This document shows, piece by piece, positions 5,652 through 44,770 of a DNA stretch of 50,601 bases. A program made the position numbers and the translations under genes. The first letter of the stretch is position 1, and each line of letters starts with the position of its first letter. The stretch comes from Haloimpatiens lingqiaonensis (GTDB lineage Bacteria; Bacillota; Clostridia; Clostridiales; Clostridiaceae), in NCBI RefSeq assembly GCF_901447495.1, contig NZ_CABDWS010000013.1:1-50601 (forward strand), read 5' to 3'. The notes under the pieces were generated by a model that saw only the letters and a program-made list of their open reading frames with translations, ran no database searches and was not told the DNA's origin.

Positions 5652-6221
5652 TTATTTCTCAATATTATACAATAATTTTTCTGTTCTATTTCTAACCTGT
5701 TCTGGAAGATTTCCTTTTAAGGCACTATTTATTAAATTAATATTATTGAGCCCATTTTTCAATAAATAATGCTCTATAATACCAACCTTATATTCTCTTC
5801 CCGGAATTAATTGATATATAATATACCAATCCTCCAAAGACGTTAAAGGAATACATTCCCCTTTAATATTTTTTATTGCAGTTATAGATTTATCATCAAA
5901 GCAATACTGATATTCACCACTATTATGCTTAATAATAAATCCAGCCATAATATCTATATCTACACCTTCTACCACATATTCATAAAAATATTTTGTTGCA
6001 TAAGTATCTGTTTTTTCTCTTAACTTTTTTCTTCCCAATCTTTTTAAAATCATATCCACTTTTTCTATATCTTTTATATGAACTAATATATCTATGTCAT
6101 TAGGTTTATCTATTAATCCATAATTATTTAAAACTACAGATGCTCCCACTGCCCATAGAATTTTTTCTTTATTTAATTCTTTAGCTAAATTAACTAATGT
6201 ATGAAATAAAATTTTTTTCAC
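5652..6221 (-). CDS. Nucleotidyltransferase-fold protein
   Basis: This 189-aa protein has the polymerase-beta-like nucleotidyltransferase signature. GAS at 26-28 is followed by NDIDILVHI with Asp42 and Asp44, and a third acidic pair lies in VDIDIMAGF at about 92-100. Its layout resembles stand-alone AbiEii/MNT-like or aminoglycoside-adenylyltransferase-like proteins of unknown target. No partner HEPN or AbiEi gene lies beside it, so a toxin-antitoxin role has no support here. The start is ambiguous. An in-frame stop lies two codons before GTG 6221, and that GTG overlaps the AGAGGGTGA ribosome-site sequence. An ATT at 6206 is spaced correctly for that site. It lies downstream of the tRNA-Sec terminator. 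Confidence 0.7.
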   Translation of the reverse strand: MKKILFHTLVNLAKELNKEKILWAVGASVVLNNYGLIDKPNDIDILVHIKDIEKVDMILKRLGRKKLREKTDTYATKYFYEYVVEGVDIDIMAGFIIKHNSGEYQYCFDDKSITAIKNIKGECIPLTSLEDWYIIYQLIPGREYKVGIIEHYLLKNGLNNINLINSALKGNLPEQVRNRTEKLLYNIEK

Positions 6222-6354: not shown

Positions 6355-6451
6355 TGGCGGGAGTATGTGAGAATCGAACTCACCCGTCGAGGTCCTACCC
6401 CGGCAACACGGTTTTGAAGACCGGCAGGCACACCAGCACCTATCTACCCCC
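6355..6451 (-). tRNA. selC: tRNA-Sec (anticodon UCA)
   Basis: The 97-nt minus-strand sequence begins GGGGGTAGATAGG and ends ATACTCCCGCCA with CCA encoded. The anticodon loop CTTCAAA places TCA in the decoding position on the GCCGG/CCGG-containing anticodon arm. There is a long variable arm (GGGTAGGACCTC region) and a T-arm with GGTTCGATTC-type sequence (GAGTTCGATTCTC). The length and the long acceptor-T stack are typical of bacterial selenocysteine tRNA. It is charged with serine, converted by SelA and delivered by SelB, all encoded just upstream on the same strand. Confidence 0.96.
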
Positions 6452-6762: not shown

Positions 6763-6891
6763 ATGTGGATTTTCTTCATTTTATTCAGAAAATCTTTAAG
6801 TTAGAAAAAGAAAGGTATAATAATATTTTTAGACAGAGCCGTTCTTTTAGTGTTCAGCCTCCAATCCCCAAATGATTTAGTGTAATTCTTA

Positions 6892-6946
6892 ATTTTTAGG
6901 CGCTAGGAATATATATGTACTAGGTACTAGGTGCTAGGTGAGGAGG
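6892..6946. repeat. ACTAGGTACTAGG degenerate tandem tract
   Basis: Units of the form TACTAGGTGCTAGG are present. The same motif recurs at 7040-7070 (inverted, degenerate), 41794-41813 and 42470-42535 (as CTAGC/CTAG repeats). No ORF is present. Confidence 0.7.
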
Positions 6947-6975
6947 GATTGATATTTGATATTTCTATATTTCTG

Positions 6976-7200
6976 TGGCTACCGCCAATAAAAGATTTTT
7001 AAAGCGCTAAAAGAAAAGTTATACTTACTTCATTTCTATACCTTCCTAGTAACTGGTTAGTACCCAGTACTTAAAAAAAATTAGTGTTTAAGGATTGTTG
7101 ACTAAAAGAACGGCTACGCCAAAAAAATATTATGAGCGCTTTCTTTTTTATAATTAAAGATTTTCCGTAACGAAGTGGAGGAAAATCATCCTTTAGTAGG
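6976..7200 (+). repeat. Variable-core repeat, expanded copy
   Basis: It begins TGGCTACCGCCAATAAAAG and ends with AATTAAAGATTTTCCGTAAC followed by GAAGTGGAGGAAAATCATCC. The interior is about 160 bp and unlike the interiors of the other copies. It is bordered by an ATATTTGATATTT tract on the left, as in three other copies. Confidence 0.75.
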
Positions 7201-7212
7201 TCGCCCCCCCAC

Positions 7213-7482
7213 AAAGTAAGTACTCTGTAACTGAAAAATCTGCTTTTAATGGAGTGATAAATGTGAAATTTAGGACTATTGAACTAGCCTTAGAACTTCT
7301 TTATTTGTCCATTTAAAGCACCGTTAAGAAGTTTTCATTGTCTGAGCGAGGAACGAGTGAGTTTGAAAACTTTAGGGGCTTTAAATGGACAAATATTAGA
7401 AGTTCTTGGCGTATTGTTCACAGTCCAAAATTTCACATTTATCACGGAATTAAAAGCAGATTTTTCCTATAGCACTTACTTC
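7213..7482. repeat. Imperfect palindrome of about 270 bp behind selB
   Basis: The left arm (7213 to about 7345) reads AAGTAAGTACT..., AAAAATCTGCTTTTAAT, GTGATAAATGTGAAATTT, AGAACTTCT, TTTGTCCATTTAAAGC. The right arm carries the reverse complement of each block in order and ends at about 7482. The turn is near 7348 within a GC-richer stretch (GAGCGAGGAACGAGTGAG). It starts 12 bp past the selB stop. One half recurs at 41668-41736. The arms differ at many positions, so it looks old or was assembled from two copies. The gap 6515-7212 otherwise holds only the other repeats listed. Confidence 0.88.
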
Positions 7483-7493
7483 ACAATATATTT

Positions 7494-9410
7494 TTACTGT
7501 GCTTTATATAAAACTCTCTTGCTATCTACTCTTCTAGTAAGCTTTTCTCCATCAAAATACTCAAGAAGAGCTACCACATATTTTCTGCTAGTATCTAAAA
7601 TCTCCCTAGCTTCTCCTGGGGTTATGCTTCCATTTTCTTTCATGTAGGCAATTATTTTATCTTTGGCCTCTTCATAATTGCTCTTAGAGAAAATGCATTC
7701 TTCATCAGTTTTAACCAAATCACCACTTAATATAAGTGCTTCAAATACAGTTTTAAATTCTTCCTTTTCCTTTTCTTTTTCCAGTAATTCCTTAAACTTA
7801 GGTGGAGTATATTTTCCATTTTGGTATTCCTTTAATATTTTATCCTTTAATTTTTCTTGTACTTCATTAAATTTTATTTGGAAACCATGGGCAGATATGT
7901 ACTTACCGTGCACATCAATGATTTCATTTTTTACAACCATATCCAATAATTCATCATATATTTTTTGCTTTAGACCTTTTCCAAAAATCTTTTCTTTTAT
8001 TTCTTCTTTTGATAATCCTGGTCTTAGTGGATATTTTGAATGATAGTCCTCTAAAATTTCTTGAAGCCTATCCATGCTTCTTTGCAAAAATTCTTTGTGT
8101 ACATATAAAGGTTCACCTAATGCAGTTAATTTTACCACCTTATTTCCTTCCACTAAGGCATCTATTTCCTCTTGAAGACTCTTTTCATTTTTTCCCAAAG
8201 CCTTTACAATAGCTTTAAAATCCGGGAAATTAGAACTTAACTTTTTAATAGTTGTTTCTATTATGCCACCTACCTGACCACTTTCCTTTAATTTTAATTC
8301 TTCTATATATTTTTCATCAAATCTCTTGGCTTTAACAGCCACTGGCTCAATTATACTGCCCCCACCTATGGTATGCATAGGAGAGTAACTTCTTATTACA
8401 AATCTATCATTTCTTTGAGCACACAGTGGTTTTTCCAATCTAAGCTGCACATAAGCCTCTTCTCCTGGATTAACTTCTTCCTTATCTAAAATTACAACCC
8501 TACATAAAATTTCTTCTGTCCCATGGTATAATCTAACCCTTTGCCTATTTTCCATTGGTCTATCTGCACTTTTTAAATAGTAAAACTTAGTATCTACCAT
8601 ATAAGAAGGTTCCATGACATTTTCCTTAGAAATTACATTTCCTCTTTCTATTTCATCCACCTTTACATTAGCTAGGTTTATAGCACATCTTTGACCTGCA
8701 TCTGCTTCATCTACAGACTTTTCATGGACTTGAAGTCCCCTTATTCTGGTCCTTATCTTAGATGGATATATCTCCACGTCCTCGCCAACTTTTACTTTTC
8801 CGCTTATAACTGTTCCAGTAACTACTGTTCCAAAGCCGCTTACAGAAAACACTCTGTCTACAGGCAATCTAAAGTGACCTTCCGTATCCTTAGATTCTAC
8901 CTCTTCTGTGGCATTATCTATAGCTTCTATAAGATTATTAAAACCATTTTTGTTTTTTGAGGATACAGGATAAATAGGTGCATTTTCTAAGAAAGTACCT
9001 TTAAATTCTTTTTTAATATCTTCTGTGACAAGCTCTATCCATTCCTCATCTACCAAGTCACTTTTAGTAAGAGCTACTATGCCCTTTTTTACATTTAGAA
9101 GTTGAAGTATTTCCATGTGTTCTCTGGTTTGAGGCATAATACCCTCATCTGCAGCAATTACTAAAACCACTATGTCTATACTGCTTATGCCTGCTAACAT
9201 GTTTTTTATGAATCTTTCATGTCCTGGCACATCTATAATTCCCGCTCTTCTTCCTGAAGGTAAGTCAAAAAAGGTAAATGCAATGTTTATGGATATACCT
9301 CTCTCCTGTTCTTCTTTCAGCGTATCTGTTTCTCTTCCTGTCAGTGCTTTTATAAGAGTTGTTTTCCCGTGATCTATATGTCCTGCAGTGCCTATTATTA
9401 AGTGCTTCAT
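7494..9410 (-). CDS. selB: Selenocysteine-specific elongation factor SelB
   Basis: This 638-aa GTPase carries Sec-tRNA-Sec to the ribosome at UGA codons marked by a SECIS hairpin. The N-terminal EF-Tu-like G domain shows GHIDHGKT at 9-16, RGISINIAFTFFDL (switch region), DVPGHERF at about 60-67 and TKSD at about 115-118. Domains II and III (VFSVSGFGTVVTGTV at about 187-201) follow. Residues about 390-638 form the four winged helices that bind the mRNA hairpin. The length is normal for the family. The ATG follows AATAGGAGTG. It follows selA after a 350-bp repeat-filled gap, so it may have its own promoter or depend on read-through. Confidence 0.97.
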   Translation of the reverse strand: MKHLIIGTAGHIDHGKTTLIKALTGRETDTLKEEQERGISINIAFTFFDLPSGRRAGIIDVPGHERFIKNMLAGISSIDIVVLVIAADEGIMPQTREHMEILQLLNVKKGIVALTKSDLVDEEWIELVTEDIKKEFKGTFLENAPIYPVSSKNKNGFNNLIEAIDNATEEVESKDTEGHFRLPVDRVFSVSGFGTVVTGTVISGKVKVGEDVEIYPSKIRTRIRGLQVHEKSVDEADAGQRCAINLANVKVDEIERGNVISKENVMEPSYMVDTKFYYLKSADRPMENRQRVRLYHGTEEILCRVVILDKEEVNPGEEAYVQLRLEKPLCAQRNDRFVIRSYSPMHTIGGGSIIEPVAVKAKRFDEKYIEELKLKESGQVGGIIETTIKKLSSNFPDFKAIVKALGKNEKSLQEEIDALVEGNKVVKLTALGEPLYVHKEFLQRSMDRLQEILEDYHSKYPLRPGLSKEEIKEKIFGKGLKQKIYDELLDMVVKNEIIDVHGKYISAHGFQIKFNEVQEKLKDKILKEYQNGKYTPPKFKELLEKEKEKEEFKTVFEALILSGDLVKTDEECIFSKSNYEEAKDKIIAYMKENGSITPGEAREILDTSRKYVVALLEYFDGEKLTRRVDSKRVLYKAQ

Positions 9411-9539: not shown

Positions 9540-9765
9540 AAGTAAGAGGTAAAAAGTAAGAAGTAAAAGTGAAGGATAAAACTCAAGGAGTTTTTTTATA
9601 ATTAACTTATTACTTCTTACCTATTAGCTTTTTACTCTTACTTCTTATCTATTACCTATTACTTACCTGCAAATTTTATATTTTTATTTTATAACTGCAA
9701 AAGTTGAATTAATAATTATTAACTATTAGTTATTACTTATTACTTCTTACTTATCAACCTAACTA
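9540..9765. repeat. AAGTAAGAAGTAAAA-type tandem tract between selA and selB
   Basis: It is built from the same units and the same mini-hairpin (AAAACTC/GAGTTTT at 9578-9594) as the tract at 862-1040. The complementary TTACTTCTTACC units follow. It fills most of the 352-bp selA-selB gap, and nothing else recognisable is seen there apart from the short repeat at 9440-9484. Confidence 0.75.
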
Positions 9766-11145
9766 CTTCATAGTTAAAAATGCTTCTACTATTGTATCAA
9801 AATCCCTTTGGAACATAGTCCTTAAATCCATTATAACTTGATTATTATATACTCTAGTTACTATTGGAGTTTCATTCATTCTCAAATTATATTCAATTTG
9901 CTCTGGAGTAAACTCTTCACTAGTAATCTTTATTACATAGGTTTCTATTTTTTCTGTAGGCATAGAACCGCCACCTACCATAGAATAATCCTCTTCTATA
10001 TGAAAATTAAAATTCTTAACCTTATTTCTTAGCTTCCTTTTTAAACTTTCTGCCTTTTTCTTTATGGTTTCTTTACTGCTTAAAAGCATATTTAGTGTAG
10101 GTATGTTCTCTATAGCTTCCTTTTCATCTAAATACAATTTTAAAGTAGCTTCAAGGGCAGCAAGGGTCATTTTATCTATTCTAAGAGCCCTAGTTAATTG
10201 ATTTTTTTTCATTTTATCTATGTACTCTTTCTTACCTACAATTATGCCTGCTTGTGGTCCTCCAAGCATCTTATCTCCACTGAAAGTAACCACATCCATG
10301 CCCTTTTTCAAACTTTCTTGAACCGTTGGTTCATAAGTAAAGCCATACTTAGTGTAGTCTATTAAAACACCACTGCCAATGTCTTCATAAACAGGTACAT
10401 TATATTTTTTTGAAAGCCCTACTAATTCTTCTATGGAAACCTCTTCAGTAAAGCCTAATATTTTAAAATTAGAAGTATGTACTTTTAATAATACTCCTGT
10501 ATTTTCATTTATGTTATTTTCATAGTCATAAAGATGAGTCCTATTGGTAGTTCCCACTTCTACTAATTTAGCATTACTAAATTTCATAACTTCTGGAACT
10601 CTAAAAGAACCTCCTATCTCCACTAGCTGGCCACGAGATACAATTGCTTCTTTTCCATTACATAAGGTATTTAAAACAAGCATAACTGCCGCAGCGTTAT
10701 TGTTAACTACCATAGCAGCTTCTGCTCCAGTTATCCTAGTTATAAGTTCTTCTATATGACTATATCTAAGACCCCTTTTTCCCTGTTCTATATTGTATTC
10801 AAGATTATTATAATTCATAGAAACATTGTTTACCGCTTCTACTGCCTGATTACTTAATAATGACCTACCTAAATTGGTATGTATAACAGTACCTGTAGCA
10901 TTTATAACTTTTTTTAATTTAGGAGAATTATTCTTTTTCATAAGCTTATTAAAGGTTTTCAAAATTTCTTCCTTTGAAATACTTTCTATCTTATCCTTAA
11001 GAATTAAATCTCTATAGTAATCTATAGTTTCTCTAAGAGTGTCTATAACTAAAGTTCTCATGGTACTCTTTAATTCTTTTTCTACAATTTCTTCTTTTAA
11101 AAGTTCATCCACCTTAGGCAAATTTCTCAAAAGTTCTCTGTTCAT
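9763..11145 (-). CDS. selA: L-seryl-tRNA(Sec) selenium transferase
   Basis: This 460-aa PLP enzyme converts Ser-tRNA-Sec to Sec-tRNA-Sec with selenophosphate from SelD. The PLP-binding lysine lies at about residue 292 in [29 protein letters not shown] at about 81-95 is the family signature. The N-terminus ([16 protein letters not shown]) matches the tRNA-binding start of SelA proteins. That supports the ATG at 11145, which has AAAGGA 9 nt upstream, over the in-frame GTG at 11163. It lies 64 bp after selD and is probably co-transcribed. Family members act as large ring-shaped oligomers in the cytoplasm. Confidence 0.96.
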
Positions 11146-11209
11146 ATAATCAGTTCCTTTCACTTATCTCCGCGTAAATTAAACTGCTTAAGTTATATGT
11201 TTATATAAT

Positions 11210-12241
11210 CTATTCTACTACTATATATTCTCCAGTAAATGGAATAACCTCTCCTACTATAGCTGATTTAAGCTCTAATTTATTTAGTTCACTTAACATC
11301 TCATCTGCTTTATCTTTAGGAATAGATACTAAAAGTCCACCAGAAGTTTGAGGATCAAATATAATATCTTCAAGCCACTCTGGTACATCATTTAATTTAT
11401 ATTTTCCATCTAGATATATTCTATTGTTATAAGCTCCTGCTGGTACTAATCCCATTTGAGCATATTCCTTAGCTTCTTCTATGTAAGGAACATTATCTTT
11501 TAAAATTCTTATGGTCTTATCAGAACCACTAGCCATTTCATATATATGACCCATAAGTCCAAAACCAGTTATATCTGTACACGCACTTATAGGATATTTA
11601 ACCACTATCTCTCCAGCATATTTATTTAATGTAGACATATTTTTAATGGCTTTTTCATAAGCTTCTTTTGAAGCTAAATCTGCCTTTATAGTTGTATTTA
11701 TTATTCCTACACCCAATGGTTTAGTCAATACTAAGACTTCTCCATCCTTACATCCACAATTTTTTAAAACCTTTTCTGGATGCACAACACCTGTAACAGA
11801 TAGACCGTATTTAGGTTCATCATCTTCTACAGAATGACCTCCTACTACCACTGCTCCTGCTTCTAGTACTTTATCTGCTCCCCCTTTTAATATTTCTCCC
11901 AATACCTCAATAGGTAAGCAGTTAGGAAAACATACTATATTTAAAGCTACTGTAGGTTGTCCACCCATAGCATACACATCACTTAATGAATTTGCTGCTG
12001 CTATTTGCCCAAAAGTATATGGATCATCTACCACAGGGGTAAAGAAATCTAAAGTTTGTATTATAGCTATATCATCGCTTAACTTATAAACCGCTGCATC
12101 ATCGGATGTTTCAATGCCAACTATTAAATTTTTGTCACTCATTTTTGGTAGCTTATCTAAAATTTTTGAAAGGGTCTCCGGCCCTATTTTAGCTGCTCAT
12201 CCAGAGGTTTTAGTCATTTGTGTTAGTCTTTTGTTGTTCAT
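11210..12241 (-). CDS. selD: Selenide, water dikinase SelD containing selenocysteine (UGA at codon 15)
   Basis: SelD makes selenophosphate from selenide and ATP. An ordinary scan begins at the ATG at 12142, giving 310 aa and lacking the active-site loop. Extending upstream past one in-frame TGA (12199-12197) restores the canonical N-terminus. It begins [14 protein letters not shown], then UGA, then [13 protein letters not shown], from an ATG at 12241 preceded by GGGAGGTG. The UGA is exactly where Cys or Sec stands in all SelD enzymes (TSG-U/C-xxK), with the catalytic Lys three residues later. The full product is 343 aa. The ATP-binding region begins at [13 protein letters not shown], and [11 protein letters not shown] lies near the C-terminus. 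It is 46 bp after comEA and 64 bp before selA, so it is probably one transcript. Confidence 0.97.
12151..12199 (-). promoter_or_regulatory. Bacterial SECIS-like hairpin directly after the selD UGA
   Basis: Downstream of the UGA (12199-12197), CTAAAAT (12192-12186) pairs with ATTTTAG (12163-12157). Inside it AGGG (12185-12182) pairs with CCCT (12174-12171) around the loop CCGGAGA. The apical loop lies 15-21 nt after the UGA and contains a GG. That matches the position of bacterial SECIS loops, which SelB recognises. The inner stem is short, and an internal bulge lies on the 3' side. Confidence 0.8.
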
Positions 12242-12287
12242 AATTAAACACCTCCCTATATATACAGTAATTTTATAATATTAACCT

Positions 12288-43325: not shown

Positions 43326-44348
43326 TTATAACAACTCTATACCTTGCTCCATGCAATCTTTTATTATATCTTCTGTCCACAGTGAGGCTTGTACTTCTCC
43401 TATATGAGCTTTTCTAAGGAAAAACATACATATTCTAGATTGTCCAATTCCCCCACCTATGGTATAAGGAAGTTTTCCTTCCAATAACATTTTATGATAT
43501 TCCAATTCTTTTCTATACTGACAGTTTTCTTTTTCTAATTGATAAAGTAAAGCTTCTTCATCTACTCTTATACCCATAGATGATAGTTCTAATGCACAGT
43601 TTAAAACTGGATACCAAAATATTATATCTCCATTTAAACTCCAGTCATCATAATCCGGAGAACGTCCATCATGTTTTTTCCCTGATTTTAATGTATCACC
43701 TATCTTCATTATAAATACAACTTTTTTATTTTTAGCTATGGCATTTTCTCTTTCTTTTGATGTAAGATCTGGATACATGTCCTCTAGTTCTTGCGTAGTT
43801 ATAAAACTTATTTCCTCCGGCAATATCTTTTCTATATGAGGATACTCCTTATGAACAATATCCTCTGTATTTTTAAATACACTGTATATATACCTAACTA
43901 CTTCTTTAAGCTGTTTTTCATTTCTACATTCCTTACTTATTACCTTTTCCCAGTCCCATTGATCCACATATATAGAATGTATATTGTCTAATTCCTCATC
44001 TCTTCTTATGGCATTCATATCTGTGTAAAGGCCTTCACCCTCTACAAAATCATATCTATATAATGCAGTTCTTTTCCATTTAGCTAGGGATTGAACTATT
44101 TCTATACTTTCCTCTTTTCCTAAATCTAAAGCATCAAAGGACACAGGTCTTTCATATCCATTTAAATTGTCATTAAGCCCTGTAGCACTCTTTACAAATA
44201 AAGGCGCAGATACTCTAGTTAAGTTCAATTTTTTTGAAAGTTCCCTTTCAAAATAATCCTTAACTTTTTTTATAGCTTTTTCTGTTTCTTTTAAACTCAA
44301 GCTTGATTTATAACCTTTTATCACTTGAAACTTTTTGCTTTTGTTCAT
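43326..44348 (-). CDS. asnA: Aspartate-ammonia ligase
   Basis: This 340-aa enzyme makes asparagine from aspartate, ammonia and ATP. It is related to class II aminoacyl-tRNA synthetases. Conserved segments are [12 protein letters not shown] (about 42-53), ERPVSFD (about 66-72), [12 protein letters not shown] (about 90-101), DQWDWEKVI (about 129-137) and [14 protein letters not shown] near the C-terminus. The length is close to the E. coli 330 aa. AGGAGGAAG precedes the ATG. Expression is controlled by an asparagine-specific T-box in the leader (44471-44770). Confidence 0.97.
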
Positions 44349-44470: not shown

Positions 44471-44770
44471 AAATAAAAAGCCTCCCATCCCCAAAGGGAC
44501 GAAAAGCTATATTTTCGCGGTACCACCCTAATTAACTTGCAAGCAAGTTCACTCTAAGCTACAGTACGGAACTATGAATTCGATACTGCCCATTCTTTAA
44601 CGGTTTGGTTCCGTCTGAGCCTAATTTTGCATTTTTTAAATGCAATTTCAGTCAGAAACTCCAAGATGTTCTTCAATACAAGTTTCATACTAATCTCTCA
44701 CCATCATTAGCTCGCTTTAAATTCACTTTATATTTACTCTTCTCTTCACAGTTTTTATTTCTTAAATTTT
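44471..44770 (-). promoter_or_regulatory. T-box riboswitch (asparagine, specifier AAC) controlling asnA
   Basis: On the minus strand the leader has an AGTA motif and a GATGGTGAGAG distal loop. A specifier-loop segment GAACATC offers AAC (Asn). The hallmark T-box AGGGTGGTACCGCG is at 44530-44517. A terminator hairpin (44508-44479) has a TTTTTATTTT tail (44478-44469). Uncharged tRNA-Asn should stabilise the antiterminator and turn on asnA. The AAC specifier agrees with the downstream gene. Confidence 0.95.

Follow-up and report, generated by a model that had tools for sequence, protein, structure and literature searches.

SelD, the selenophosphate synthetase, is a selenoprotein in many species and carries Sec always at the same position; Sec forms make up 19% of the SelD genes in a reference set, according to the available part of that source (PMC4561486). 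The UxxK motif of SelD is listed in the accessible text of a second source, which also gives a model of the bSECIS element with a loop of 3-9 nt, a stem of at least 4 bp, a G in the first two loop positions, a spacing of 16-37 nt and an energy of at most -7.5 kcal/mol, and which notes that not every bSECIS element conforms to this model (PMC13188914). Among described gene clusters, the selDABC cluster of Eubacterium acidaminophilum, which we cite through the reference list of PMC12013277, has the order selD-selA-selB-selC.

The locus described here lies in a 50,601-nt stretch of Haloimpatiens lingqiaonensis DNA (contig NZ_CABDWS010000013.1), hereafter the window. Judged from its sequence, its selD is a real and well-supported case of a well-described kind, and is ordinary as such. 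The protein does not differ from other Sec-containing SelD proteins (TIGR00476), sharing their family, domains, Sec position and UxxK motif; the one thing that sets the gene apart from those of other Clostridia is where exactly the putative SECIS element lies and how it is shaped.

The selD locus and its genomic context

The selD reading frame opens at an ATG (12241-12239), meets a TGA as codon 15 and then runs through 328 sense codons to a TAG stop (11212-11210); a ribosome site, GGGAGGTG, ends 7 nt upstream of the ATG (Table 1). A sequence-only reading had proposed such a frame, with one TGA read through, 33 codons gained and a good ribosome site in front, and its coordinates proved exact, as did the length of 343 residues. 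Aligned with other SelD proteins, as that reading had suggested, the read-through product matches relatives as well as the solved selenide, water dikinase chains 2yye (residues 6-333) and 3u0o (2-342). It scores 409.6 bits against NCBIfam TIGR00476 (cut-off 125) and contains the Pfam domains PF00586 (AIRS) and PF02769 (AIRS_C), both above their cut-offs. U15 and K18, within TSGUAAK, constitute the UxxK motif, and the placing of the UGA at the Cys/Sec position of the active-site loop likewise stood, homologues having either UGA or a Cys codon there. The nearest named relative found is Clostridium sp. KNHs214, whose SelD is 87% identical.

Table 1. Features of the selD locus, in window positions.
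Feature	Position	Strand	Evidence
selD, 343 residues including the predicted Sec at codon 15, stop included	11210..12241	(-)	frame, family models, solved relatives
In-frame UGA, predicted to be read as Sec	12197..12199	(-)	TGA in 149/170 distinct homologous genes, Cys codon in 21
Shine-Dalgarno-like GGGAGGTG	12249..12256	(-)	read by eye from the sequence
Candidate SECIS hairpin AGGG-CC-GGA-GA-CCCU, nt +12 to +26 after UGA	12171..12185	(-)	synonymous freeze, kept pairs, recoding null; weak as a single fold
selA	9763..11163	(-)	TIGR00474, 644 bits, cut-off 267.9; PF03841
selB	7494..9410	(-)	TIGR00475, 355.9 bits, cut-off 242.25; SelB winged-helix domains
tRNA-Sec (selC), anticodon TCA	6355..6451	(-)	ARAGORN

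The gene heads a selD-selA-selB-tRNA-Sec cluster encoded on a single strand, so that selA, selB, selC and selD are all present in the genome. The gene order is the one cited above for E. acidaminophilum, from which the cluster differs in a repeat-rich spacer of about 1 kb between selB and selC. The GTG at 11163 is the first possible start of selA, with an in-frame ATG at 11145, and the tRNA-Sec is also recognized by RF01852 at 6359-6451 (62.4 bits, gathering score 47). Linkage of these genes is common among 80 selD loci: of the 76 that have enough sequence, 67 have selA at most 400 nt downstream of selD, and selB comes after selA in 67 of 71.

Several further features of the window were recorded. 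The spacer between selB and selC (6800-7470) contains nested inverted repeats and no listed ORF of 100 aa; used as a query, it matches 165 places in its own genome, counting itself, several of them about 320 bp long and 90-97% identical, and it looks like a member of a high-copy palindromic (MITE-like) repeat family. Just after the tRNA-Sec, a 189-aa frame (5652-6221, minus strand) bears a weak likeness to nucleotidyltransferases (PF14907, 29.2 bits, below the cut-off of 31.2). Elsewhere, a T-box leader (44492-44758, 129.6 bits) precedes the gene for an AsnA-type aspartate-ammonia ligase (43326-44348), both on the minus strand.

Other selenium users were sought in the same genome. GrdA and GrdB adjoin each other (L111, G000:C10:29042-32482) and have one in-frame UGA each, SelU is present, and Fdh-alpha (TIGR01591), looked for as a further user, gave no match in this genome. 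A hairpin with a UGGA loop is predicted after the GrdA UGA; for GrdB, a hairpin with a GGU loop was considered and dropped, the fold preferring another form.

A candidate SECIS element just downstream of the UGA

For comparison, 197 sequences were reduced to 170 distinct selD genes, in which the codon at the Sec site is TGA in 149, TGT in 14 and TGC in 7; since the loci are the best-scoring ones plus 60 hand-picked places, these proportions are no census. An earlier set yielded a usable match in 130 of 131 sequences (L119 being the exception), 107 of them distinct. The genes were considered in groups of 52 near relatives, 40 second-group genes and 12 Cys genes, with the divergent UGA genes L124, L126 and L127 left out.

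The sequence-only reading had also called a SECIS-like hairpin and proposed a fold of 12199-12151. A hairpin does lie inside that fold, and comparison with relatives upholds it, but as a single fold it has no excess stability over dinucleotide shuffles (z of -0.53, 0.18 and 0.38, and 0.70 for a second fold), and single-sequence folding was rejected as proof of a SECIS element. Against synonymous recoding the hairpin is moderately unusual. Of 1000 recodings, 18 were as stable over +10 to +30, 48 over +1 to +48, 51 over +7 to +30 and 113 over +7 to +42, and the paired structure itself (5 of 6 pairs) arose in 51 of 5000. The element is claimed here without the longer lower stem drawn by the single-sequence fold.

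Stronger indications come from the relatives. Among the 52 distinct near relatives, the window included, codons soon after the UGA are fixed at synonymous sites: AAA in 52/52 for Lys, ATA in 52/52 for Ile, GGG in 45/47 for Gly, CCG in 51/52 for Pro, GAG in 43/43 for Glu and ACC in 38/38 for Thr, as compared with downstream usage of 70, 63, 11, 6, 20 and 20%, respectively, in the same stretches. The 12 Cys genes show no such freeze. The near stretch is more stable than its synonymous recodings (rank at most 0.05) in 33 of the 52 near relatives and not in the other 19, and reaches that rank in 8 of 40 second-group genes and in none of 12 Cys genes. Across 65 genes with a hairpin of this near type, pair 14-24 is G-C in 48, A-U in 10 and G-U in 7, and pair 15-23 is G-C in 53, A-U in 7, G-U in 3 and unpaired in 2. 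The loop is GGA or GGG in 61 of them, and the C16-A22 mismatch in the stem is unpaired in 39. Of 390 cells, 341 are paired; when the partner was slid by 1 to 3 positions, 142 to 258 remained so.

Set against the published bSECIS model, in the portion of PMC13188914 that was accessible, the window hairpin appears to be a borderline case. In its minimum-energy form it has 4 bp, a 7-nt loop (CCGGAGA), a spacing of 15 nt and an energy of -3.8 kcal/mol, so that loop G, spacing and energy fall outside the limits. With the C17-G21 pair formed, the loop becomes GGA and the spacing 17, both within the model, and the fold over 48 nt of the window reaches -7.6 kcal/mol. It resembles the bSECIS consensus, as given there, in being a stem-loop that follows closely on the UGA within the coding sequence and has GG near its apex, and departs from it in its shortness and weakness and in the C-A mismatch of its stem. 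A further departure is that other clades appear to serve the same selD UGA with a hairpin located further downstream.

Alternative hairpin places at the same codon

This far hairpin, at +26 to +44, occurs in 77 genes and is stronger than the near one, with a GU-N loop (GUU in 65). Its pairing is nearly complete (611 of 616 cells, against at most 357 with slid partners), and pair 30-40 occurs in six standard pair types. At rank 0.05 against recodings, the far stretch stands out in 39 of 40 far genes, in none of the 52 kin of the window gene and in 1 of 12 Cys genes. A third hairpin, with all 32 cells paired and a GCUU or GCUA loop, lies at +20 to +39 in 4 genes of one clade (family f58), and the near hairpin is shifted by one position in two distant genes. 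Loop spacings of 17, 27 and 33 nt are all inside the 16-37 nt given in the accessible text of PMC13188914. Near-type genes come mostly from the window's family and Clostridiaceae. The tree set has 76 far-type genes, of which 17 are from family f21 of the same class and 10 from named Lachnospiraceae, the remainder coming from Tissierellia, Clostridiaceae, Eubacteriaceae and further families, including the window's own (6).

Altogether, 148 of 149 distinct UGA genes have a hairpin at one of four placements; when each gene is recoded synonymously according to its own codon usage, 25.3 would be expected to have one. The placements and thresholds were chosen by eye from these very sequences, and the recoding null, although run with the same thresholds, cannot undo that choice. 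For Cys genes the corresponding figures are 6 of 21 and 3.4 expected, which lends little support to SECIS remnants in them; such remnants are reported for some Cys genes in the available text of PMC1794560. Near and far hairpins occur together in 11 of the 77 far-type genes, against 3.6 expected.

The codon freeze, the kept pairs and the excess of hairpins over recoding together support the view that the stem-loop after the UGA is kept by selection. A different account of the same codons, that they serve something other than a SECIS element, such as a protein loop or another regulator, with the true SECIS elsewhere or absent, would accommodate the weak stem of the window hairpin, its ordinary stability against shuffles and the poor fit of its minimum-energy form to the model as available to us. 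It is nonetheless improbable: pairs 14-24 and 15-23 persist through exchanges in the 65 genes, relatives that lack the near hairpin mostly have a stronger one downstream, a single UGA gene lacks a hairpin at all four placements, the window's kin have no excess structure in the far stretch, and the GG of the loop recurs in the UGGA loop that is predicted to follow the UGA of GrdA in this genome.

Reading of the UGA

The GTDB family was represented by 206 genomes, among them that of the window, and 128 of these gave a selD match. By a manual count of the listed rows, 86 of the 128 (again with the window) have the UGA form, and the other 42 have only a stop-free form, the match in one of these (G026) not covering the site. 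That several clostridial and other SelD enzymes carry Sec there, as the sequence-only reading had stated, agrees with the available text of PMC4561486. With the UGA kept in so many genomes, a sequencing error or a chance stop is excluded.

That the UGA is a real stop, with a 310-aa protein from the ATG at 12142 as the functional product or with the gene in decay, is very improbable. A standard gene caller does give only this 310-aa ORF, and most near relatives retain the ATG at 12142 (51 of 52 have Met in that column). Against this stand the 33 codons upstream of it, which align with solved SelD chains and relatives from residue 1-5 on and are under extra constraint at synonymous sites, and the absence, by eye, of any ribosome site before 12142 comparable with that of the upstream start. 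The shorter form would also lose U15 and K18, the UxxK residues, and for that reason would probably be an inactive stub, as had been proposed. Finally, the sequence-only reading had named a second, Cys-containing selD elsewhere in the genome, together with decay of this frame, as evidence against it; when the assembly that holds the window (3.29 Mb, 99.76% complete) was searched, the UGA gene was the only selD found, with no Cys copy, and this genome needs selenophosphate for GrdA, GrdB and SelU. For annotation, the point is practical, since a caller that stops at the UGA yields a SelD of 310 aa without its catalytic residue.

Equally hard to credit is readthrough in which Cys, Trp or some other residue mostly takes the place of Sec: the stop-free forms among relatives are common enough that Cys would be tolerated, but selA, selB and tRNA-Sec share the cluster with selD, hairpins accompany nearly all UGA genes and few Cys genes, and a UGA of this kind is also found in GrdA and GrdB of the genome.

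Some family members carry more than one selD. Two UGA-form copies each are present in G095, G097, G129 and G130, and G123 has a UGA form plus a stop-free form; these five genomes are natural cases in which to ask why a second SelD is kept. In another family member, the UGA-form selD (L132, G103:C65:75191-78345) is interrupted by an insert of about 1.9 kb with a TnpB-like frame (Cas12f1-like TNB, OrfB_IS605) and a RAGATH-18 RNA; an Rfam search of the insert gave no group I intron match. In IStrons, inserts are removed from the RNA.

Proposed mechanism and self-dependence

The window gene is thus, with high confidence, a Sec-containing selenophosphate synthetase whose gene heads a selD-selA-selB-selC cluster, its UGA probably decoded by way of the hairpin 12-26 nt downstream, as alignment, conservation in relatives, the adjoining selA, selB and tRNA-Sec genes and the comparative SECIS evidence all indicate. 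Ribosomes would start at 12241, SelB bound to the hairpin would deliver Sec-tRNA-Sec at codon 15, and translation would continue to the full 343 residues, placing Sec in the selenium-binding loop near the N-terminus. SelD would then convert selenide and ATP to selenophosphate, which would feed SelA, and with it the Sec of SelD itself, GrdA and GrdB, as well as SelU, for selenouridine in tRNA.

As selenophosphate would supply, through SelA, the Sec of SelD, the making of SelD would itself require SelD. If selenium were lacking, translation would end after 14 residues and the pathway would close down; with selenium, a little SelD would lead to more. A cell deprived of all its SelD might start again from inherited protein or by placing some other residue at the UGA. 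We consider it a sound inference that the feedback loop proposed earlier would be a positive one, of self-dependence. A similar idea has been in print since 2006, from Zhang and Gladyshev's group (PMC1794560); in the accessible part of that paper, the dependence of the pathway's first enzyme on the pathway's product is a reason why the Sec trait can be maintained for SelD.

Did the hairpin move?

The placements were mapped on a tree of 136 SelD proteins, thinned from 168 rows after L132 and L195 were dropped as short. The hairpin codons were left out, the tree was built by a quick search under LG+G4 with SH-aLRT as the only branch support, and genes with both hairpins were scored as far-type. 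Placements are clustered on this tree far beyond shuffles. With Cys genes set aside, at least nine changes between the four placements are required (the minimum possible being three), and at least seven between near and far. With Cys as a state and only well-supported branches considered, at least two changes are required for the near type and at least three for the far type, and losses to Cys may account for some of these. The tree carries a long-branch warning, 46 of its 133 inner branches are weak and its root was placed just for display, so neither how many moves took place nor which way they went can be read from it with certainty.

Gene transfer between lineages alone would not change the place of a hairpin on the gene tree. 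On balance, we favor the reading that the hairpin has occupied at least three alternative places at one orthologous selD Sec codon, with the apical loop starting 18, 28 or 34 nt past the UGA, and has repeatedly shifted from one to another in the course of evolution. The genes with both near and far hairpins are candidate intermediates. Change of SECIS place among selD genes was not found in the searched literature, which included the available text of PMC4561486, PMC1794560, PMC13188914, PMC12013277 and PMC9312934 and lay mostly outside subscription journals; such a change between clades at one Sec codon may therefore be new.

If the hairpin did move, SECIS placement would be labile, and an element could be gained anew inside a coding sequence without loss of Sec. 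The selD genes would then form a natural series in which a recoding signal shifts while the protein and its UGA stay fixed, and would allow one to ask how far from the UGA SelB can work.
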